Shown: positions 34 through 23,100 of the stretch, piece after piece
Numbering within the stretch: position 1 is the stretch's first letter
Layout: the number at the start of each line of letters is the position of its first letter
Source of the DNA: Agelas oroides
Taxonomy: Eukaryota > Porifera > Demospongiae > Agelasida > Agelasidae
Length of the DNA stretch: 64,000 bases
Direction of reading: 5' to 3'
Assembly (NCBI GenBank): GCA_949130485.1
Contig: OX422204.1
Span: 6,851,478-6,915,477, forward strand
Notes under the pieces: model-generated
Told to the model about the DNA's origin: nothing
The model's input: the letters and a program-made list of their open reading frames with translations, nothing else
Databases searched by the model: none
Translations under genes and position numbers: made by a program

Positions 34-369
34 TTTACATTCCTGCAGATATTGAACTCCAGGGACAGGCGTGGTACCACGGCTGGATCTCACGAGAGAC
101 TGCAGAAGAGAGACTCAACAAGGTCCCATATCACTGCTTCCTCATCAGAGAAAATGATGCCACAGGAAGCACTCTTTCACTCGCCATGAAGCACCAAGGA
201 GAGATCTCACACTTCCTGATCGAGAAAGATTCTGACGGATATGAAATCACTGGAACTGATAGGAAGTTTGATACACTTCTTCAACTGGTGGATTTCTACA
301 TGACCAACTCAGTCTCGGGTGATCCACGTCACCACCTCAGTTCCCCCTGCCCACGACCCTCCTCAGATG
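34..369 (+). CDS. Gene A exon: SH2 domain
   Basis: The acceptor CCACAG ends at 33 and the donor GTGAGT starts at 370. The translated exon carries the SH2 hallmarks WYHG, FLIREN and HFLIE. It is more diverged from the gene B SH2 exon than the kelch exons are from each other. Confidence 0.9.
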
Positions 370-3300
370 GTGAGTGTAATGGAGACCATGACAAGTATCT
401 GGAGACAGTGTACCCTCATTCCCAGGCCTCCCCCTTCAGTTTGTGTTGACAATGATATAAAATGGGGAAAGCCAGGGAAGGTCTGGGACCATTAATCACA
501 TGTAGCCTCATCCCCAGGCCCTGCCCAAAAAATCTGGAAAAGGGTCACACATGCATAAATTGCTGAGTCAGCACATTATGTAACAATTACATGCCTTCTG
601 TGCGATCACGTGGTAGCCAGCTACTGTTGACAATGGTGTTACAGAGTATGGGAACAGATCTTGCCAAGGAGCGACTAGAGTCTAGTCCTGGGAGGCGAGA
701 GTAGTAGCCTATCATGTCTAAATGTGTTCCAAGTTCTGAACTTTGAGCCTTTTTCCCATTTTCAAATAGTCTTAAAATGAGACTACTAATTTCATGTGGT
801 CAAGAATGTAGTAACCGGTAATGGATGAACATGATTGGTCTATCCCAAACAAAGACTGCTCACATAGCACAGACGGGAATTTTTGCTTGATGTGTTGTCG
901 TTGTTTGAGCAATTTACATGAGAACAGACGTTTCGGCCCAACAGCCTTCATCAGCTAGAACACACTTCACAGTCCTACGTCACATCATATGCAGACAATG
1001 AGCCTTGAATTTTTGCATGTATGACCAGGCCCTTTTCCTGATTTTTTAGGTGGGCCTTGGGGATGAGGCTAAATCATAAGAGTGATGTCAGGTGGGTGTC
1101 AGGTGGATGCAGCTCACATTGGGCTCCACCCCACCACATCCACCTCACACCCACCTGATGTTATTCACATAAGACCATCAATATTTAACAGTGGGAACTA
1201 TTGTGGTGGAGGCTTGCTGTGTTGTGTTCACCCACCTGATGTTATTCACATGATCAATGGTACCAGGCCTCCCCCAAGTTTCACCACTCTTCTAGCCTCG
1301 TACCCAGGCCGTTTATAATGAACGGCCTGGGTACGAGGCTACCACTCTTCTGGTTCTGTGTATTGTTCTCAATGTAAACAAAGGAATGTAGTCTGGGAAT
1401 GGGGTCACCTACACCTGGGTACAAGAACTAACACCCACAACTACTAGTCGGGGTTAATACAGAGGTGTCCCCCTCCCCAGAACACAACACAGCAAGCCTC
1501 CACCACAATAGTTCCCACTGTTAAATATTGATGGTCTTATGATAGTTGCTCATGTGAGGAATCAGTTCCAGTGGTGACAGTTTGGTTCTTGAATGTTCCT
1601 ATGACTAGTACCATTTTAGAATGTGAAGGTCAAATGTCATAATTTGCCAGTAGGAAGACTTTTTTGGGGGTACTAGCATTATTTGCAGCCTTGTTTGAAG
1701 CATGTAAATTCCTAGTCCCCTCCCCCCAACCTTGTTTGAAGCCTGGGAATGATGCTGGCCCCCCTCCCCCCAACCTTGTTTGAAGCCTAGGAATGATGCT
1801 GGCCCCTTCCCCCAAATAGAACCTTTTGAGGTCCCAGAAGCAACCTCAGAGCAGCTGGGTTCCTCCCCTCAATCAAACAAACAAGAGAATCACATTTTGT
1901 TGTACTATCCAATTCTCTCTCTCAGATGCTCAACCATCCAGTGACACAGTTCTACCACATGCACCAGACAGCAAGGTACTCATGTAGTAGTGACTGTGTG
2001 ACTGTGTATACATGTGTACACACCCACACTGTCATGTAGTGTTGCCATGACAACATGGCATTCAGTGTTCCTACCTATCCACTGACACTCAACAATCTAT
2101 ACATTGTACACAAACCAAACAATGACTGAACAGCCCAAACAAGATCTCCCAAAAACCTTAATTAGATTGTAATGACTAGGGTCTTCCCTACAACTGTGCC
2201 AGTGTTAGAGTAGTGTCCCAGACTCCACCCTCTCATGAGGAAAAGGGTCTGGTGACTATTGAACACTTTAAAGTTGTGCCGAGTCAGCAGTACCGAATTT
2301 TGAACAAGTCATAGTTACATAATTACGTGCTTTTTGACGTAGCACTATTCATTGGCTAGCATTCAATGCTTTCACGAGTGCTTTTTCATTGGCTTGTTCA
2401 GAATTATTGACGGCACAACCAAGAAAGTGCTTGATAGTCACCAGACCATTTTCCTTATGAGAGGGTGGAGTCTGGACACGAGACTAGTATTAGAGAAGTG
2501 TCTAAGCTACTGTTGATTTCAGCTCTCTTTGGACACTAAAGCTGTACACAGTAAGCATTTCATTGAGTGGATTGACAGGTTTCAATTATCTTTACTTACG
2601 TGGTGGTATCGTGGTATCGAACAACAAATTACTTATGTTCAAAGGTAGTTGAAATCAACAGTATAATGGATACAGTATTCACAGTCTGCCACTCAATGTT
2701 CCCACTGTCAAGACAGTAAACATCCCACAAGTAGTGTGCACATACATTGTCATGTGCATGGTCCTGGAGTACATAATGGATGAGCCCCACACTAGTGGGA
2801 CTGGGTTGGGCACATGTGTATATGCTTGCTTGCAGCCACTTATCATAACTCCTTCAGAACAAACACAACTTAAAATATTTTTAGAACACGTCCACCTCAA
2901 ACAAGATGTTGATACCACTGACATTATCATTATTACATGCACACAAGATGAGATCCATTAATACAGATGCATGGCAATGTGATGTAATGTATAAACTATA
3001 TTGTCATGATGGTTACCATAGCAACACTATTAGAAAACAATAAAGAACAACCATTATTATCACAACACCATTGTGTACACATTACTAACTCATGGCTGAT
3101 ACCTTGTTCCTCTCTCTCTCCCCCAGTCTCTGCTGCTCCACCCACACTCCAGACTGAGGTGGAGGAGAGTGGCCAACCTCCCAGTAGCAATGTCAGTATA
3201 CCACATAGTGAGGATTGGGAGCACCATCTACTGTGGTGGGGGGTACACAGTCAACATTGACACAGAAAGGCAGTTGTTCCAGTACAATCCCAAACAAGAC

Positions 3301-4107
3301 ACATGGTCACAACTTCCCATTTGCCCCACTCATTACTTTGGTCTCACCCAACTTGATGGCAAGCTAGTGACAGTGGGAGGTAGCAGAATTGATAAGATCG
3401 TCCCCATCAATGATGTTTACGTATTTCAAGACTCTGAAACATGGGAGAACTCCATCATCCCACCCCTGCCCACAGCTCGCTTTTACCCAACAGCATTCAA
3501 TTACAAATCAACACTCATTGTAAGTGGAGGACTCACTCAATCGGACACTGACCCTAAATTCAGGACTTATACCAATGCAGTGGAGGTGTTTCAAACCAAG
3601 ACGTACCAGTGGTACCACGCTGAGTCTCTACCAGTTGCACACAGTGGCATGTCATGTGCAGTTGTTAATGACACATGTTATCTCATTGGAGGGGACAAGT
3701 TAGGTACTGCATCCAGACAAGCTTATTGTACATCAGTATTCAACCTGATCTCACGAGCCCTCCCACCCAACCATCCAGAGACCAGCAGTACCCCCCAAAC
3801 CTCCCCCTCACCACCCACATGGCAGGTCCTACCTGAGCGTCCACTTCATTACTCCACTGCAGCAGAGCTGGGAGGTTGCCTCCTGGCTATTGGAGGGAGG
3901 GATGACAGTGGTTCCTCATCTTCAGCAGTCCACATGTACTCTCCCAGCACCAACTCATGGGTGAGGATATCCAGTGGGGATCTACCAGTACCACGACAAG
4001 GAGCTGCTGCAACACAGTTGGAAGGGGGAGAAGTCATCTTTGTGGGGGGAGACATTAAACTAATCAGCCCCACCAAAACTGTTTTCACTGTCTCGATTGA
4101 ACAGTGA
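34..4107 (+). CDS. Gene A: SH2-kelch protein (5' end outside window)
   Basis: Three coding exons are visible: 34-369 (phase 1 to 1), 1926-1975 (phase 1 to 0) and 3127-4107 with a TGA stop. The first is a full SH2 domain: WYHGWISR start, FLIREN strand with the phosphotyrosine-binding Arg, SHFLIE strand and a PC end. The second is a 17-residue linker. The third is a 326-residue kelch propeller with six GG-doublet motifs (CGGGY, VTVGG, IVSGG, YLIGG, LAIGG, IFVGG). By family knowledge SH2 domains bind phosphotyrosine and kelch propellers bind proteins, so an intracellular adaptor is inferred. It is the tandem paralogue of gene B, so death-domain exons probably lie left of the window. The proline-rich exon of gene B has no visible counterpart here. 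Phase agrees across all joins. The exact acceptor of the first exon (34 rather than 49) is chosen by phase with gene B. Confidence 0.86.
1169..1540. mobile_element. Inverted-repeat element, 61-bp perfect arms
   Basis: Positions 1169-1229 are the exact reverse complement of 1480-1540. The 250-bp centre has no long ORF and contains the separate hairpin 1293-1341. It is absent from the gene B intron, so it arrived after the duplication or was lost from B. I see no clear target-site duplication, so the superfamily is unknown. Confidence 0.75.
1293..1341. mobile_element. TAGYCTCG hairpin element, 49 bp
   Basis: A near-perfect palindrome begins TAGCCTCG and ends CGAGGCTA. It is flanked by the 9-bp direct repeat CCACTCTTC (1284-1292 and 1342-1350), which indicates transposition. 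Confidence 0.85.
1976..3126 (+). other. Gene A intron before the kelch exon
   Basis: The intron aligns with gene B 10554-11757 and holds the 2211-2486 element. No other feature is seen. Confidence 0.6.
2211..2486. mobile_element. TAGYCTCG-family element in gene A intron
   Basis: The ends are inverted repeats of about 55 bp (left TAGTGTCCCAGACTCC, right GAGTCTGGACACGAGACTA). The flanks GTGTTAGAG and GTATTAGAG form an 8/9-matching target duplication. The same insertion lies at 10777-11045 in gene B, so it predates the gene duplication. Confidence 0.85.
3127..4107 (+). CDS. Gene A terminal exon: kelch propeller
   Basis: The acceptor CCCCCAG ends at 3126. The 981-nt exon runs to a TGA at 4105-4107 and is exactly the length of the gene B kelch exon. 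Six GG-doublet kelch motifs are spaced roughly 50 residues apart; a Ser/Pro-rich loop sits between motifs 4 and 5. Confidence 0.92.
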   Translation, partial: SLLLHPHSRLRWRRVANLPVAMSVYHIVRIGSTIYCGGGYTVNIDTERQLFQYNPKQDTWSQLPICPTHYFGLTQLDGKLVTVGGSRIDKIVPINDVYVFQDSETWENSIIPPLPTARFYPTAFNYKSTLIVSGGLTQSDTDPKFRTYTNAVEVFQTKTYQWYHAESLPVAHSGMSCAVVNDTCYLIGGDKLGTASRQAYCTSVFNLISRALPPNHPETSSTPQTSPSPPTWQVLPERPLHYSTAAELGGCLLAIGGRDDSGSSSSAVHMYSPSTNSWVRISSGDLPVPRQGAAATQLEGGEVIFVGGDIKLISPTKTVFTVSIEQ

Positions 4108-7386: not shown

Positions 7387-10300
7387 ATGGACGGAGGTAG
7401 GTTTAAAGGTTGTACGGAGGGAGGCAACTTCAGGCTGGTCATAACGACATAAGTATAAAAAAGGGCTGCATCATCATGAAAACTGCAACGTTTGGGTCAA
7501 AGCATCGATTCTGTATTACACGCGTACAGTGGGTAGTCAAAGCTGCAAGGAGGTCATAATGATTGACATTGTAATGGTTCAAGTGGCAAGTGATATGTTG
7601 GTGATGAGTGGTAACAAAGGAACTCTTGTAGTTGCATATGCATCCAACTGTGAAGCATGGTCAAGTGGGCCAATGATAAGCTGCTTAGTCTCATCCCCAG
7701 ACCCTCCACACCCATTGTGTAGAGATGAGACTAGTAGCCACTTGCATCTCAGTTGTAGAAGCATTTGTTACTGGATCACAATGTGAATCAAGCAATCAAC
7801 AAATTTACAGTTAGCCTGTTGCTGCATTGCTATCCCTCTAATCCCCCCTCCCTGTGTGTGTGACTCAAGTTTACCTGTTACAACTGTGACTGGAGCTATT
7901 GTGTAGTCTTCCCTGGCTCTCAGTTAGTTCTACTTCTCACCTTAAAGGCTGCTCAGCTATAATCTCACATGGTCAACCATAGCCTCGTCCCCAGGCCCAG
8001 TTCAGGCCTGTTCGAAATATCGGAGCCCGAAATATCGAAAACGGGCTCCGATATTTCGAACGGGCCTGGGGACGAGGCTAGGTCAACCAATATTAGTCAG
8101 CTACAGCTGTGAGTAAATGTAACTACAGTAAGTTTTTGGAGGAGCAGTCTCCAGTGTGCAATGACTCAACTTTGCTGGTTTTGGTCCTGACAGTTGACCA
8201 CAGTGTCAGTGATTGTTCTTTTTCCTCTAGGTGGACGGAGTTCTTCTGGTGTCACTGACGTCTCCTCAGAAGTTGATTCCACTCCACTAGGTGTGTAACC
8301 AAACCACACAATGCTGTGGCAACAATCTATCACTACTAACAATCATTTAGCCTCGTTCCCAGGCTCTCCCGCGCGCGAATGAAAAATCGACCGCTTTTCC
8401 GTACTGCAAGCGATGGAAAGCTGGGCGGGGCCTGGGAACGAGGCTAACAATCATTTGAGACAGTGAAAAAAAATATTCTTTTGGGAGAACTTTGGGCCAA
8501 GACTAGTACAGGTAATAACTTATGAGGAGGATGGCTACTGTGATGGGGTCAGGGGGTTGCCTTGTTCCCAGGCCACTCCCAGATTTTATCTCGCAGCTGT
8601 GGAGAAACAGCTGCGAGATAAGTCTGGGAGTGGCCTGGGAACGAGGCTAGTCAGAAGGTAGAGACCGCTAAGTAGAGAGTGTAATGTCACTTGACTTTGA
8701 AACATTTTTTGGTCTTGCTGACTCAGAATGAATAACCTGTCCGATTGTAGGAAAATTGAAATATTAATATTTCTTGGGGGGAACTGTGATTTGGTGCTAA
8801 CAATACATTGCCCAACTGATGTGATGACATCACAATTACATCATCACTTGGTACCGACTGCACTGCCTTGCATTATCTGATGGTTGGTGCCCCCTTTATA
8901 TCCATCCTTGTCGGTGCCCTCCTATCGTGATCCTGGTAGATCGTGCTCTGCCCGGTGCCAAGTAGCTCTAGCTGTACAATTACCACTGTACTCTATCACA
9001 CCTTGGCTGCCTCCACGAGTTCTGTCCACTAACTATGCGTAGGACACTCTACGTAACAAGTATGCTCAAATGGTAGATCATGCTCTCATGTTCTGAGTTC
9101 TATTCCCCGGCCATGTGGGTCTGGCCTGGGAATGAGGCTCTGCACTCATACCACTGTCCTATCTCTTGTATGAGTCCTGTTTACTAACTGTGTAGGACAA
9201 TCTGGGTAACAAGTATGCTCAAATATGTTCATACAGTACTAGCTGGTTTGTGATGCATTAACCATCCACCATGCCATTTACTTCAGATCTCGATGATGAT
9301 CTCTTTGATGTGCAAAGTGAGCTAATCCCAGTCACTGCAAAATGGAGGAACATTGGTACCGCTCTGCGACTTAAAATCTGATGTCCTGGAGAGCATTCAA
9401 GTTGGGAGTGGTAGCGACCCTCCTGCTTGTCTGGCTTCAATGGTGACAGAGTGGCTGAAAAGGAATTACAATGTGCAACGGTTTGGAGAGCCAACTTGGC
9501 AGAGGTTGGTGGAGGCAGTGGGCCACCCTGCAGGTGGAGCAAACATGGCGGTTGCAAGGGACATAGCCAGGAGGCACAAGGCTGGAGGTAAGTTACACAA
9601 AAGAGCTTCTATCATAGAGCACAATGCTGCCTCTCCATCGTGGATTTGTCCACTGGAAGTAGGATTATGTTATTTACCATGGAAACCATCTATATGCTTT
9701 TCTTCAACATGTAACAGAAGCACATTCTTTCCACAGCTGTCTCCCAGCCACAAGAGTCTGCCCACACATATGATGTGGGATTTCCTGTTGAACTTCTGAG
9801 GGAGGTGTGGTATCATACTGGGATCATACGGAAGACTGCAGAGGAGCGACTTGAGCATGGTGCCAGTGGCTGCTTCCTCGTCAGAGAGAGTGAGACCAAA
9901 CCTGGCTGTTTCTCCCTGTCCCTAAAACATGCAGGAGGTGTTGCACATTTCCCTATTGAGAGAAAAGATTCTGGGCTCTACGAAGTCCCTGGAACTCACA
10001 AGGGCTTTACGACTCTTCCGGACCTGATTGAACACTTCAAACACCATCCTATCTCAGAGGATCCACACCGGCAGCTCAGCTACCCCTGTTACAAAGTTAT
10101 CCACACTGGTGAGTGAAAGTAGAAATGTTACACATGGCTAGCATGCACATTACCAGTTCCAAGCCATCATTTGGACCCTTCTTCCCTCACAGTGGAGGAC
10201 ACACCTCCTCCGGTGACCTCTCAAACTACCATCCCTCCAGTCCCTGTCCCCCGACGCCGTGTACCTTCAGGGAAACACACTACCAACACCTTCCTTAAAG

Positions 10301-12738
10301 GTAAACAGTCTCCACATGCCTCCACACTCATAATAAACTCCAACACTAGAGCTTGGTTAATGTATGTACATAATATAGCTGGCTGGTTGATGTGTGTTTT
10401 TGTTGAGCCGTTCAACATTGACAATGTAGGCAGAGGCACTGACTTCCATTACCGTATACAATGACTGATAGTTTCATTACTCAATCCACTTTCTCTCTCT
10501 CAGATGCTCAACAATCCAGTGACACAGTTCCACCACATGCACCAGACAGCAAGGTACTCATGTAGTAGTGACTGTGTGGCTGTGTATACATGTGTACACA
10601 CCCACAGTCATTTAGTGTTGCCATGACAACATGGCATTCTGTGTTCCTACCTATCCACTGACACTCAACATTGTACATGGATGACCGAGCAGCTCCAAGA
10701 AAGGTCCCCCCCAAAAAACCTCAATTAGATTGTAGTAACTAGGGTCTTCCCCCCAACAACTGTGCCAGTGTTGGAGTAGTCTCGTGCCCAGACTCCACCC
10801 TCTCACGAGGAAAAGGGTCTGGTGACTATTGAGCGTTTTGGTTGTGCCGAGTCAGCAGTACCAAATTTTGAACAAGCCAATGCTCACATACTTTTCCTCT
10901 TTTGATGTAGTCTTTTGATTTCATGGGCTAGCTTGCATGACATAGCATTGGCTTGTTCAGAATTGATGACACAACCAAGGCTGAAGCATTCAACAGTCAC
11001 CAGACTCTTTTCCTTGTGAGAGGGCAGAGTCTGGGCACAAGACTAGTATTAGAGAAGTGCCTACAATAATGTATTTACAGTCTGCCACTCAATGTTCCCA
11101 CTGTCATGACAGTAAACAAGCAGTATCCACATACGTCATGTACATGGTCCTGGAGTACATAATGGGGTGAGCCTGGGTGAGCCTCAACTATACACTTATT
11201 CGCTTGCTTGCTTGCAGCCACCTATTGTAAATCCTATTATGCAAAACAAACACAAAAATACTTATGTCAATTAAGATATTGCATAGCCATCAAGCACTGT
11301 TTTCCAAGGCTTGTTGGTAAACAAGTACGTGGAGTGAACTATACTATACAAATATAATAATTACATGTCCCATTATAATTATGTACACAAGACGAGATTC
11401 ATTAGTACAGATGTACATTGTGTGTTAGAAGGTAAAAACCATTGTGTTTATGTTCCATTTATTGGTGGACAATAGTATAGGTGAAGCTACACCCTGCTCC
11501 TCCCTGGGGAATCTTGAACCTACAGGTTCTGAGAGCATCTTGGGGGTGTGGTTTCACTTGAAAACATGCATGTACTAGGAGTGTAACCCACCTCATTGGT
11601 TGTGTGTGACGTACTTCAAAGATGGAACCCGTAGGATTCAAAATGCTCTAGGAAGGAGCAAGACATGGCCTTCCCTATTACCTACTAACACACAAAGCAT
11701 GTAGCACACATTACTTGTGCTCATGGCTGATACCTTGTTCCTCTCTCTCTCCCCCAGTCTCTGCTGCTCCACCCACACTCCAGACTGAGGTGGAGGAGAG
11801 CGGCCGACCTCCCAGTAGCAATGTCAGAACACCACATAGTGAGGATTGGGAGCACCATCTACTGTGGTGGGGGGTACACAGACAAGATTGACACATCCAG
11901 GCAGGTGTTCCAATACAATCCCAATCAAGACACGTGGTCACAACTTCCTATTTGCCCCACTCTTGAGTTTGGTCTCACCCAGCTGGATGGAAAGCTAGTG
12001 ACAGTGGGAGGTCGCAGAATTGATCAGTCCATCCCCATCAATGATGTTTACGTATTTCAAGACTCTGAAACATGGGAGAACTCCATCATCCCACCCCTGC
12101 CCACAGCTCGCTTTTACCCAACAGCATTCAATTACAAATCAACACTCATTGTCAGTGGAGGCTTCACTCAATGGGACACTGACAGTAAACTCAGGACTCG
12201 TACCAGTGCAGTGGAGGTGTTTCAAACCAAGACGTACCAGTGGTACCATGCTGAGCCTCTACCAGTTGCACACGATAGCATGTCATGTGCCATTGTTAAT
12301 GACACATGTTATCTCATTGGAGGGACCACTGGTTATGCATCCAGACAAGCTTATTGTACATCAGTATCCAACCTGATCTCACGAGCCCTCCCACCTGACC
12401 ATCCAGAGACCAGCAGTACCCCCCAAGCCTCCCCCTCACCACCCACATGGCAAGTCCTACCTGAGTGTCCACTTTCTTACTTCACTGCAGCAGAGCTGGG
12501 AGGTTGCCTCCTGGCTACTGGAGGGAAGGATGACAGTGAGTCCCCATCTTCAGCAGTCCACATGTACTCTCCCAGCACCAACTCATGGGTGAGGATATCC
12601 AGTGGGGATCTACCAGTACCACGATTCGCAGCTGCTGCAACACAGTTGGAAGGGGGAGAAGTCATCTTTGTGGGGGGATACATTAAACTAGACAGCCCTC
12701 CCACCATAACTGTTTTCATTGTCTTCATTGAACAGTGA
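7387..12738 (+). CDS. Gene B: death-SH2-kelch signalling protein
   Basis: Seven exons: 7387-7396, 8231-8290, 9287-9587, 9737-10108, 10193-10300, 10504-10553, 11758-12738. Phases match at every join, giving about 626 residues. Approximate order: acidic leader, death domain 32-122, SH2 148-240 (WYHTG, FLVRES with the binding Arg, AHFPIE), proline-rich linker with PPVPVPRRR (a likely SH3 ligand), and a kelch propeller 301-626 with six GG motifs. From family knowledge this is an intracellular adaptor joining a death-fold interaction to phosphotyrosine recognition; partners are unknown. The start is the only ATG that splices in phase to exon 2. One oddity: the death exon carries one base too many in an A run at 9373-9376, so the frame holds only if that base is dropped. 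This is either a sequencing error or a real lesion. Confidence 0.87.
7980..8080. mobile_element. TAGYCTCG hairpin element in gene B intron 1
   Basis: A palindrome of 101 bp from TAGCCTCGTCCCC to GGGGACGAGGCTA, with a nested ATATCGGAGCCCG stem. It is flanked by a perfect 9-bp duplication GGTCAACCA (7971-7979, 8081-8089). Confidence 0.9.
8348..8446. mobile_element. TAGYCTCG element in gene B intron 2
   Basis: The ends TAGCCTCGTTCCCAGG and CCTGGGAACGAGGCTA are flanked by a perfect 9-bp duplication ACAATCATT. The centre (CGCGCGCG, GCTTTTCCG) is unrelated to the other members. Confidence 0.9.
8557..8649. mobile_element. TAGYCTCG hairpin element in gene B intron 2
   Basis: A 93-bp palindrome with a long stem around CTCGCAGCTGTGGAG. 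Flanks GTCAGGGGG and GTCAGAAGG match at 7 of 9 positions. The left end is mutated to TTGCCTTG. Confidence 0.8.
9000..9240. repeat. Diverged tandem duplication in gene B intron 2
   Basis: Two units of about 130 bp share TGTCCACTAACTATG / TGTTTACTAACTGTG and AACAAGTATGCTCAAAT. No coding content. Confidence 0.6.
9287..9587 (+). CDS. Gene B exon: death domain
   Basis: The acceptor TTCAG ends at 9286 and the donor GTAAGT starts at 9588. Before the A run it reads KWRNIGTALRLK and after it SDVLESIQVG, WLKRNYNV, GEPTWQRLVEAV and MAVARDIARRH, a typical six-helix death fold. The two halves lie in different frames; removing one A of AAAA at 9373-9376 restores continuity and the phase-1 exon end. Confidence 0.85.
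9737..10108 (+). CDS. Gene B exon: SH2 domain
   Basis: The acceptor CCACAG ends at 9736 and the donor GTGAGT starts at 10109, phase 1 to 1. It contains VWYHTGIIRKTAEERL, CFLVRESE, AHFPIERK and LSYPC, all in SH2 order with the critical Arg present. Confidence 0.95.
10193..10300 (+). CDS. Gene B exon: proline-rich linker
   Basis: A 108-nt exon, phase 1 to 1, encoding PPPVTSQTTIPPVPVPRRR. The P-x-x-P-x-R pattern fits a class II SH3-binding site. Being symmetrical, it could be skipped without frameshift. It is followed by the 17-residue exon 10504-10553. Confidence 0.8.
10777..11045. mobile_element. TAGYCTCG-family element in gene B intron
   Basis: The orthologous partner of 2211-2486, with flanks GTGTTGGAG and GTATTAGAG and ends TAGTCTCGTGCCCAG / CTGGGCACAAGACTA. 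Confidence 0.85.
11046..11757 (+). other. Gene B intron before the kelch exon
   Basis: No exon is seen. The 3' end is a TC-rich polypyrimidine tract ending CCCCCAG. Confidence 0.5.
11758..12738 (+). CDS. Gene B terminal exon: kelch propeller
   Basis: A 981-nt exon with six kelch GG motifs (CGGGY, VTVGG, IVSGG, YLIGG, LATGG, IFVGG) and a TGA stop at 12736-12738. It is highly similar to 3127-4107 and of identical length. Confidence 0.93.
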   Translation, partial: SLLLHPHSRLRWRRAADLPVAMSEHHIVRIGSTIYCGGGYTDKIDTSRQVFQYNPNQDTWSQLPICPTLEFGLTQLDGKLVTVGGRRIDQSIPINDVYVFQDSETWENSIIPPLPTARFYPTAFNYKSTLIVSGGFTQWDTDSKLRTRTSAVEVFQTKTYQWYHAEPLPVAHDSMSCAIVNDTCYLIGGTTGYASRQAYCTSVSNLISRALPPDHPETSSTPQASPSPPTWQVLPECPLSYFTAAELGGCLLATGGKDDSESPSSAVHMYSPSTNSWVRISSGDLPVPRFAAAATQLEGGEVIFVGGYIKLDSPPTITVFIVFIEQ

Positions 12739-14149
12739 GGAACTGCGTAGCACTTCCATCAAACAATTCACGCACAATTCAGTTCACTACACATCTCAAG
12801 ACAGCCACAGTACTTGGTGAGGTGGAACTTAATTTCCTCACAGAGCTTCTCACTCTCACATGTATGGCTTTATTGTAGCTGTTGTGTACACTCGTACACA
12901 CTTGTGTACACTCGTACTTGTTGACAAGTTTATGAATAATGTAAACAAAATTGAATTTCTCTTTTTGTAACACATTTCACTCCATACACATGTACATGTC
13001 ACATACAATGTGATTAATCCAAGTTCAATTTCATGATACCAACATGTAATAAGTCTGAACCAGTTTTATGCTCTGTTCGGAGGTGTACTGCTCACTGGAA
13101 GACTGCCAGTAAACACACGACCCATGTAATAAGTCTGAACCAGTTTTATGTTCTGTTCGGAGGTGTACTGCTCACTGGAAGACTGCCAGTAAACACACGA
13201 CTCGTGTAATAAGTCTGAACCAGTTTTATGTTCTGTTCGGAGGTGTACTGCTCACTGGAAGACTGCCAGTAAACACACGACTCGTGTAATAAGTCTGAAC
13301 CAGTTCTATGCTCTGTTCGGAGGTGTACTGCTCACTGGAAGACTGCCAGTAAACACACGACCCATGTAATAAGTCTAAACCAGTTTTATGCCATGGGATG
13401 ATAAAACCACTTGTTGGACTGTACACAACTGACAAAGATCAGATTTTCACAATGTGTCAGCTTTTACTTATTGACGTTAACAATTTGAAAGTGGACCAGA
13501 AATGTCAACTATGTGCAGTCCAACATTATCATCCACGGGACTATCTCAGTGATCATATTTTGAGTCACTTTGGACAAAGTACCTTCTAGTGCAATGGTCA
13601 ACTACTTGTTGGACTTAACTGACATTTTAAGTACACTGTTTCTTGTTGGTGCATACCAATTTAAAGTTTACTGGCAAAAAGAGTGACACTCTTTGTCAGC
13701 TGTGTGCAGTCCATTTGTTGATCATATTGTCCCTTCAGACAGAGTCTTGCTAGCTCCATAACCAGTGAATGTCCTGGATAGACAGCTGTCAATATGGGTA
13801 ATCAACACATTACTACATTAAAAAATTGATTGTTGCAAAGAACAAGCTGGTCCCACAAGCTAGACCCAACCAACCACAGCACATCAGTATCATGCACAAA
13901 TTCATGGTTGAGTCTTGTTCCCAGGCTGTTCCCACCTCCAGTCTGGGAACGTGGGGCTAGTTGTGAGACTAGGACCAAGCTATATGCTAGAAGGGGCCAA
14001 ACAATTTTAGACACCTACCTTGCAAAGAAATTTTAATATAACATTTATTGATTGACCAAACAACCACAAATTACTAGCTACATAATATTAATACTATGTA
14101 CACATAATATAAAGTGCTAGTACAGTGAATTGTTAAGTGTATTGGCACG
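12739..14149. other. Convergent 3' ends of gene B and PA2G4
   Basis: It holds both 3' UTRs, the 80-bp array and a TAGYCTCG-like inverted motif near 13913-13960. On the - strand an AATAAA (complement of 14044-14049) lies about 100 bp past the PA2G4 stop. Confidence 0.6.
13050..13390. repeat. 80-bp minisatellite, four and a half units
   Basis: Unit includes AATAAGTCTGAACCAG and TGTTCGGAGGTGTACTG. It lies between gene B and PA2G4 and is absent from the gene A copy, so it expanded in one paralogue only. Confidence 0.9.
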
Positions 14150-20100: not shown

Positions 20101-23100
20101 TAAATAAAATGGTACGAAACAGTAGGCACAGTTAACACTGTTGCTAAGCTCATGTACATAATAGCGATTGCTTGGGTACCACGACATCTGGCAAGGGTCA
20201 CACACAATGGCCTATCCTGTTCTCCTCCCCCCTCACCCTTCCTTCTGTTCTCCTCCACCCTCACCCTTCCTTCTGTTCTCCTCCCCCCCTCACCCTTCCT
20301 TCTGTTCTCCTCCCCCCTCACCCTTCCTTCTGTTCTCCTCCACCCTCACCCTTCCTTCTGTTCTCCTCCACCCTCACCCTTCCTTCTGTTCTCCTCCACC
20401 CTCACCCTTCCTTCTGTTCTCCTCCACCCTCACCCTTCCTTCTGTTCTCCTCCCCCCCCTCACCCTTCCTTCTGTTCTCCTCCACCCTCACCCTTCCTTC
20501 TGTTCTCCTCCACCCTCACCCTTCCTTCTGTTCTCCTCCACCCTCACCTTTCCTTCTGTTCTCCTCCCCCCTCACCCTTCCTTTTGTTCTCCTCCACCCT
20601 CACCCTTCCTTCTGTTCTCCTCCACCCTCACCCTTCCTTCTGTTCTCCTCACCCTTTATCTCACAACAGATGCTACCTCTCCCCCCCTTTCTCCTCCCCC
20701 CTCCCCCTCCACCCTTTTCCCTCCCCCTCACCTCTCCTCCAGGTACAACCATTCTGTGAGCAATCTCTGAAGCAATGTAACCTGCCTGGATGACGTCGGC
20801 ATGGCGACCAGTCACCTTACTATCCTGTGTTGGAAGGTTCATTTCAACATACTTTGAATGTCGTTGCAGTGAGAATATATCCCACAGCCTACAACATTCA
20901 AATCATGTCATACAACAATCATGCCTTTTGAAAATGAAAGGACGTTTTCTGTCATCCCCTGACAAGAACTAAAGCATTTTTCAGAGTTTGCAAATTATCT
21001 GACCCGGTAACGGTTTATTCAGTTCTTTTACAGGAGCCAGCCGACCACTCTTTGCATCCGATCACATGATCTTCAACCAATCATACTCTTTGTATGGCCA
21101 TTGAACAATCAATCTACTAAAATATCGCTTGAGGACACTCATTCCCACTTCCTCCCTCCTCCCCCCTCTCTCTCAGTTGACTACCAAAAATCTTACCTTA
21201 GAGCTACCGACAACCATAGTGTGTCCAACAGCAGCAATAAACCCATCCACATGTACCCCCAACTCCCTGAGGGGGAAATACAAAGTTTATGTAGACATGA
21301 CAGACAGACAGGCAGACAGGCACAGGCAGACAGACAAAGGCAGACAGATGGACCACCTACACCTTCACGAGGTCTCCGTTCTTCAAAGTGACAGCAGCGT
21401 CAGATCTCAGTGGTGAGAAGTGACAGACGCAGTTGTTCAGAGACACACAAGTGGGGAACGCAATCCCTGTAAACACAACAACAATCTCAGGAGGCGTTAA
21501 TTAGAACAAACTCCTAGCATGTTACATGCAGTTGGTCCCCATCTCCTGGTCACCCTAGCATATCTGATAAGTTGGCCGAAAACACATCACATGCAGTAGG
21601 TGACTTCACGTAAGGGAGATGTGGTTTGATGTTCACACACATCTATGCAATTCAATAGATTGACATTAATTCTGCACAGTAAAAATGCCGTGTTTTACTT
21701 TTTCCTCCTCTGCTTGATCCTCGACAGCTCCCCTCCTCCCCCCTCATTCCCTTCTACCTTTCTTCATCTCTTTCTCCTTCTTGTACACCTTCTTTGTCTC
21801 CTCCAGGATCATCTGGTCTCCCTTCTCACACAGGTCCACGACTAATGCTCCATCCACACACCCCTCTAGCACATGACGAAGGACTCCTGGGGATGGGGGG
21901 AGAGGGATGGGGGGAGAGGGAAAGGGGGAGGAGGAGAAGGGGAAGAGAGAGGGAGGAGAGGAGAAGGGGAGGAAAAGGGAGGAGAGGAGGAGAAGGTGGG
22001 GAGGGGAAGGAGGAAGAAATTGGAGAGGACACTGTACTCTTCATGGAATCCACTACCAACAGCAGCTGTCAATTCTACTTCCTGTGGGTGGAGTCACATG
22101 ATGTAATAGTGCTGTCAGATTACTTGGTCATGTACTTTGATTGTACTATCCACCAAGTACGAAGCACTGAACTTCCATCAAGAACAAAGCTCACATGCAG
22201 TTTGTAGATACATAATTCTATGAAGCACGTGTAAGCCCTGAAGTTCAGCAACACAGCTCTTCACATGCAATTGAAATAGCTGACAGAACAATTTCTGCAT
22301 GAGAGTGTCACATGAGTCTCGTTCCCAGGCTCACTTCCTCTTCTGGGAACGAGACTACTATCACTAGGCCAGAAGAACCGCTCCGTACCGCTCCAGGTCA
22401 TTCCTGAGTTATTAAAACTGCATTTCTCAGCTTCTTTGTTGATTTACACTCAAGATCCGGCCAGGATCAGCTCACGTTCAACATCTGCAAGCTCTTTCAA
22501 CCAAACCTGCTGGGACATTTTGCAAGCATTTTTTGTCCCACTAAAAGCTTAATGCTCAGATTGTGTGAATATCCTGCGTCAATACAGTGCGTACTGCACC
22601 GTACTCACAACAGTATCCTCTTCAAATTTCCCACTCTCTAGGCATGTCTAGTCCATAATACCATAGATCAGGAAATGTTAAAATAAATTTCACAGTTGAG
22701 ACCAACCGTGAAAATTTAACACGTGAATAAAAAGATTTACGCGGCGATGATGAACGAATAAGCGTGCGTGCATGTCCACACCTACCGAGGTAAATGTCCA
22801 ATCGACGACTACTCCTGACAGCCACAGTGTTACAGCCAGTGATATCTGGCTCTCCTGATACCTGGTAGTAGACTAAACGCTAGGAATGTTCCAGGCGCTG
22901 ATCGTCAACTGTTAAGAAAATTTCGCGGATCGAATGAACCGCAAAAATTTAACACTACGAAATTTTTTATAACGTGCAATCAAGAACCTTGGAAGGGACC
23001 GATCAAGTGATCCCACTTGTATTTCGATGTACAACAAGCAAGCAACTATCCTTGTGTGGTAATAGTTGAATGTTCTCTTGCGACATTCCTTGAGTGCATC

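Follow-up and report, generated by a model that had tools for sequence, protein, structure and literature searches.

The interval from 7387 to 12738 in the window raises the question of whether Agelas oroides joins a death-fold-type module, an SH2 domain and a kelch propeller in one protein and, if so, which part would sense and which would signal. The window, the whole stretch of 64,000 nucleotides that we analysed (C22:6851478-6915477), comes from a genome of 259 Mb in 141 contigs. Seven exons, E1 to E7, can be chained across the interval, and the six introns between them are all GT-AG, with E7 starting in phase 0 (Table 1).

Table 1. Exons of the window gene (copy B, E1 to E7) and of the neighbouring copy A, in window positions.
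Feature	Position	Strand	Remarks
Copy A SH2 exon, second type	49..369	+	About 44% identity with E4; most likely of several possible boundaries
Copy A E6 equivalent	1926..1975	+	From alignment to E6
Copy A kelch exon	3127..4107	+	86% protein identity to E7
E1	7387..7396	+	10 nt, start codon exon (M D G)
E2	8231..8290	+	60 nt, phase 1-1
E3	9287..9587	+	Death-like exon, 301 nt; frame broken, in-frame TGA at 9379-9381
E4	9737..10108	+	SH2 exon with FLVRES, 372 nt, phase 1-1
E5	10193..10300	+	Proline-rich linker PPVPVPRRR, 108 nt, phase 1-1 cassette
E6	10504..10553	+	50 nt, phase 1 to 0
E7	11758..12738	+	981 nt, predicted six-bladed kelch propeller and stop codon; DA/BC loops hypervariable

Much of this chain is repeated elsewhere in the genome. 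E4-E5-E6-E7 with conserved splice sites recur at loci L056 and L057, E3-E4-E6-E7 with a degenerate E5 occur at L055, and E6 is 50 nt long in all eight other copies aligned. At the 5' end, a 65-nt stretch around E1 is 95% alike at L011, where it lies 5' of an E2-like exon, and E2-like DNA was found at 19 of the 27 other death-exon loci searched (at L024 after the death exon, not before it). Because paralogs share the order of the exons, their splice sites and phases and an E6 of 50 nt, the chain is, on this comparison, more than chance, and the suggestion in the earlier note that the gene probably belongs to a family is supported. The introns also contain short inverted repeats around GCCTCGTTCCCAGGC together with a 56-nt pair (7980-9138 and 10777-11045), which look like MITE-like hairpins. 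Tandem arrays with periods of 80 nt and 28 nt are present just 3' of the gene (12965-13444) and at 20 kb (20171-20738), respectively.

The weak point of the chain is E3. The earlier note had the exons chaining in phase to give death, SH2 and kelch in one protein; the splice sites agree with this and the phases match those seen elsewhere, but E3 is frameshifted. The frame that enters it from E2 stops at the TGA within the domain, and the remainder of the domain is open in another frame. E3 is 301 nt long in the window versus 297 nt in L058 and L060; the death exon of L055 is also 297 nt if a GC donor is used, and that of L059 is 303 nt by alignment, with no AG acceptor there. Among 30 other distinct genomic places examined, the death-like exon is open in 29 and has a TGA in one (L027). 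Since its E3 frame is broken, the window copy cannot encode a Death-SH2-kelch protein as it is sequenced, and the combination in one protein is supported instead by paralog gene models with a death-fold-type module. Omitting E3 leaves an open SH2-kelch frame of 526 aa.

The identity of the first domain is also less secure than the label "death domain" implied. Pfam Death gave no match for the window E3 read through the break, and weak matches for 7 of 27 paralogs, the best with an E-value of 0.0078 (16.8 bits versus a cut-off of 22.6); a rescan of ten paralogs gave two matches. A death-exon profile searched against the PDB found no death domain. Positions 44-91 of profile A1 matched CLK2/CLK3 kinases over about 48 residues (E 2.5e-6, whole chain), a likeness that we judged to be chance convergence because it covers half of the exon only and some paralogs weakly match Death. 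In a genome search with PF00531, none of the 150 listed candidates out of 870 coincided, by eye, with the listed death-exon places, and that search therefore did not confirm the label. A single-sequence model of the unbroken part of E3 is helical (pLDDT 58.7). The death label for E3-type exons is thus sub-threshold, plausible but not proven, and a genuine death fold in the first exon is something we infer. "CARD-like", used below for an alternative first exon, is a label given from the look of the sequence; Pfam CARD did not match the two CARD-like members scanned, and a profile of this exon found no CARD in the PDB.

Both exon types are abundant, with at least 150 matches in the genome for the death-like exon (150 of 624 candidates scored) and 107 for the CARD-like exon; such a wealth of death-type exons is in keeping with a sponge. 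The death-like exon also occurs with partners other than SH2-kelch, for example at L018, where it precedes a RING-like finger (Pfam E 7.8e-5, below cut-off). The death-like exons upstream in L058 and L059 may or may not belong to the SH2-kelch genes there, because a CARD-like exon lies nearer to the SH2 exon in L058 and a copy of E6 follows the death-like exon in L059. In L059, ORFs that by eye resemble P-loop GTPases (L059:2578-3929) separate that death-like exon and its E6 copy from the SH2-kelch gene.

The SH2 and kelch identities, by comparison, are certain at the level of sequence. E4 matched the Pfam SH2 model with an E-value of 2.7e-20 (72.7 bits versus a curated cut-off of 21), and its nearest solved SH2 domain is from SHP2 (PTPN11; E 4.6e-21). 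The FLVRES-type arginine, a phosphotyrosine-binding motif, is present in all 11 SH2 exons from the ten sequences examined, and the SH2 exon has 43 matches in the genome. The linker that follows was originally described as an SH3 ligand. SH3 ligands have the consensus PxxPx[RK] or [RK]xxPxxP, and PPVPVPRRR in E5 contains no strict class I or class II motif, so in the strict sense this description fails for the window gene; the L044 linker has two class II motifs.

E7 matched the Pfam kelch model with an E-value of 5.5e-32. Among solved kelch domains, designed SAKe propellers come nearest, followed by KLHL20, KBTBD10, KLHL2 and Keap1 among others. An AlphaFold2 model of moderate quality (pLDDT 59.8, pTM 0.64), when searched with Foldseek, gave a best match with an E-value of 1.7e-14 and matches to KLHL proteins and Keap1 at about 1e-13, the closest folds being SAKe, KLHL and Keap1. 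By sequence and predicted fold alike, E7 qualifies as a six-bladed kelch propeller. Copy numbers for this exon rest on a DNA-level search of the genome, which gave 19 matches. These correspond to 15 separate exon-like places, of which two are in the window, plus three short weak matches on C7. We rejected the reading of this set as pseudogenes because 10 of 11 full kelch exons are open.

Paralog gene models show the complete architecture. When modelled from a selected ATG to where the kelch frame ends, the genes have no internal stop at L044 (C10; 562 aa), L056 (C16; 610 aa) and L057 (C22; 611 aa); in all three a CARD-like first exon replaces the death-like exon and is followed by SH2, proline linker and kelch. 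At L055 (C22:4.62 Mb) a Death-SH2-E6-kelch chain reads without a stop for 572 aa beginning at E3; its death exon is followed by a GC donor, and the E5 donor is lost. L044 carries its proline linker and a divergent kelch domain (32% identical; Pfam E 5.5e-30) in one open exon, after introns of 102 and 87 nt, which makes transcripts that end before the kelch domain unlikely. The large intron between E6 and kelch in L055 contains two helicase ORFs on the minus strand (L055:5240-6833), RecQ-like by eye (DEAD E 1.6e-10, Helicase_C E 9.2e-13) and perhaps from a mobile element.

We looked at same-strand neighbours up to 12 kb from the 16 strongest SH2 places (E <= 1e-15). Upstream, 13 of them have a death-like or a CARD-like exon, no such exon was found for two, and one has N. 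The link is loose at two of the 13, C22:6830237, whose upstream exons lie at distances of 7 and 11 kb, and C22:4984041, where the upstream CARD-like exon has a stop. The kelch exon lies downstream within 12 kb at 8 of the 16. These counts cover 44 of the 150 death-like, 12 of the 107 CARD-like and 22 of the 43 SH2 places, so that more neighbours are possible. Kinase-coiled-coil exons, too, are followed by this kelch exon, at C22:6534333-6541103 (L048-L049) and 6559309-6568322 (L051-L052), the kinase matching Pfam with an E-value of 7.3e-39. As the kelch exon is common to Death-SH2, CARD-like-SH2 and kinase genes, one propeller exon family appears to sit downstream of three or more types of signalling chassis.

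The window itself contains a second SH2 and kelch set (copy A), spanning 49-4107, from which a tandem pair had been proposed. This is true only of the 3' half of the gene. E6, kelch and downstream blocks are 89-98% alike between copies A and B (98% for E6 and 92% for E7 in DNA), and the blocks run to about 6570 and 15496, respectively. The two SH2 exons, however, are only about 44% identical, whereas E4 of copy B is 92% identical in DNA to its counterpart in L057 and 91% to that in L056. Upstream of the window, C22:6848600-6851477 (L061) reads N up to the window start, which hides the N-terminus of copy A. Judged from these alignments, the window gene is a chimera with a 5' half like L057 and a 3' half that duplicates copy A, and kelch exons have evidently been exchanged between genes.

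Whatever the family does, the window copy may itself be a decaying chimeric duplicate without function, a serious possibility that we nevertheless hold to be the less probable outcome. Its chimeric origin fits such decay, as does a frameshift in E3 when the exon is open at 29 of 30 other places. Its SH2 and kelch exons are still open, however, E3 can be left out in frame, and the frameshift may reflect an allele or a mistake in the reads or the assembly.

To characterise how the propeller evolves, we fitted codon site models to ten kelch paralogs, using our own implementation with branch lengths fixed from M0 and leaving out L008 (stop), C22:6532485 and C22:6557460 (partial), C22:4977479, C1:30437630 and the divergent L044. 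M2a (lnL -4070.8) was strongly preferred to M1a (lnL -4173.5; 2ΔlnL 205), with omega of 7.0 at about 10% of sites and 0.165 at about 57%, and the M7-M8 comparison gave a 2ΔlnL of 223. The signal is also found with a tree built from non-selected codons (2ΔlnL 237), in the two halves analysed apart (82 and 125), in the seven SH2-linked kelch exons alone (103), and blade by blade, each of the six being significant when given a tree of its own (p from 0.0055 to 1.4e-10). Simulated nulls reached at most 2.73 in nine single-tree runs and 13.05 in 15 runs with six joined trees. The same sites vary in the kinase-linked exons (L048-L049, L051-L052): when sites were picked in SH2-linked copies, the held-out kinase-linked pairs had a pN/pS of 2.69 at those sites versus 0.68 elsewhere. 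When sites were picked without copies A and B, the A/B pair had 21.5 nonsynonymous versus 2.5 synonymous differences at them, and 37 nonsynonymous and 12 synonymous differences outside them, which is about neutral.

The selected sites are not spread evenly over the fold. When the 23 sites with posterior >0.9 were mapped on the AlphaFold2 model, with some strand limits set by hand where the model is unclear, 5 were in DA loops, 12 in BC loops, which also contain indels, and 6 in strands; five of the strand sites are near strand ends adjoining DA/BC loops, and residue 164 is in a D strand. None of the 23 falls among the 55 residues of AB or CD loops (hypergeometric P of 1e-4 for DA/BC enrichment and 0.01 for AB/CD absence). 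In Keap1 the DA and BC loops together form the substrate face on one side of the propeller (PMC4668279), and the ligand face of KLHL20 is likewise DA/BC (PMC6720452). On the alignment and the predicted fold taken together, the putative binding face of the kelch domain evolves unusually fast.

The SH2 domain behaves differently. Control analyses of eight and six SH2 sequences, made without the second SH2 type (copy A, L058, L059), gave no diversifying signal (2ΔlnL 0), and omega in the close set of six is 0.23. Pairwise dN/dS is 0.12-0.24 among six close SH2 exons and 0.72-1.25 among close kelch exons, the two ranges coming from different gene pairs. Within same-gene pairs it is 0.15 for SH2 and 0.43 for kelch between window copy B and L057, and 0.49 and 0.62 between copy B and L055, where the contrast is smaller. 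Diversification may extend beyond the kelch domain, as the death exon (15 of 30 places) gave a weak signal (2ΔlnL 8.2, p 0.017).

Since the ligand face diversifies while the SH2 domain is conserved, which is the pattern expected of a sensor, we read the kelch domain as a diversifying sensor rather than an output, although rapid kelch evolution by itself shows neither an immune role nor a ligand. We lean towards placing the window gene in a multigene family whose products are probably cytosolic and act in recognition. Each would begin with a death-fold-type module, either death-like or CARD-like, continue with an SH2 domain of functional type and a proline-rich linker, and end in the six-bladed kelch propeller. 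The DA/BC-loop face of the propeller would bind a variable ligand and so act as the sensor. The SH2 domain would dock the protein on phosphotyrosine, or phosphotyrosine would gate the protein through it, and the death-fold module would then nucleate assembly with matching death-fold partners. We infer each of these functional elements, from cytosolic location, ligand and phosphotyrosine binding to assembly and a role in immunity or allorecognition.

The propeller could instead be a substrate-recruiting arm as in KLHL proteins, tracking fast-evolving endogenous partners rather than non-self, with the protein serving as a regulated adaptor. The closeness of its fold to SAKe, KLHL and Keap1 propellers and the shared use of the DA/BC face are in keeping with this, but the scanned exons yielded neither BTB nor any other E3 domain, and the same kelch exon is common to kinase, CARD-like-SH2 and Death-SH2 genes. 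We regard a substrate arm as unlikely. Less probable again is the arrangement proposed in the earlier note, read here as one in which the input comes from phosphotyrosine and death-fold assembly while the propeller serves as a conserved output. It agrees with the domain order and with the retention of FLVRES in the SH2 domain; an output would, however, be expected to be conserved, and here it is the SH2 domain that is conserved and the propeller face that has diversified, which is why we dropped it as the leading view. An artefactual origin of the kelch signal, through gene conversion, faulty alignment or relaxed constraint, is very improbable, since, for all the evident exchange of kelch exons and the indels in BC loops, recombinant nulls stay far below the observed value, the signal persists per blade and in held-out sets, and more than half of the sites are under low omega.

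The sensor reading places the family beside several known systems without matching any of them. Like Keap1 and KLHL20, its members have a six-bladed kelch with a DA/BC ligand face, but an SH2 domain and a death-fold-type module stand in place of BTB and BACK, neither of which was matched in the exons of these genes that were scanned, and the face is diversified among paralogs of one genome. The SH2 domain shares its fold and FLVRES with those of SHP2, SYK and ABL, SHP2 being the best PDB match; these genes have no phosphatase or kinase, and death-fold-type and kelch partners instead. Sponge NLRs (NLRC, NLRD) also form an expanded family with CARD or DEATH N-termini, as described in PMC12909245, in which the terms SH2 and kelch occur zero times; they are defined by NACHT and LRR, and neither was found in the exons scanned here. 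The closest logic appears to be that of the fungal HET-E/HET-D NLRs, which have hypervariable propeller-forming WD40 repeats, varied N-termini and exchange of repeats between members (PMC4986451). The fungal proteins have a central NACHT and WD40, whereas the Agelas oroides family has SH2 in the middle and kelch. A literature search returned no paper on a sponge protein with death domain, SH2 and kelch, nor on kelch with an SH2 domain in Porifera, and a broader one no such architecture in titles or abstract starts, subscription papers lying mostly outside both.

In early-branching animals, NLRs are the usual place to look for diversified intracellular recognition. Our results suggest a little-known kind of intracellular recognition protein. 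It is possible, and we put it forward tentatively, that a repertoire of kelch propellers with hypervariable faces serves a sponge-type animal in intracellular recognition of non-self or in allo-recognition, the propellers being exon-shuffled among Death-SH2, CARD-like-SH2 and kinase-coiled-coil chassis and without NACHT or LRR. What the kelch loops bind is a testable hypothesis, for which L044, L056 and L057 are candidate genes. If the reading is true, recognition would have a second scaffold in this propeller family, which would parallel by convergence the hypervariable WD40 repeats seen in fungal NLRs and would represent an innate recognition system built without NACHT or LRR.
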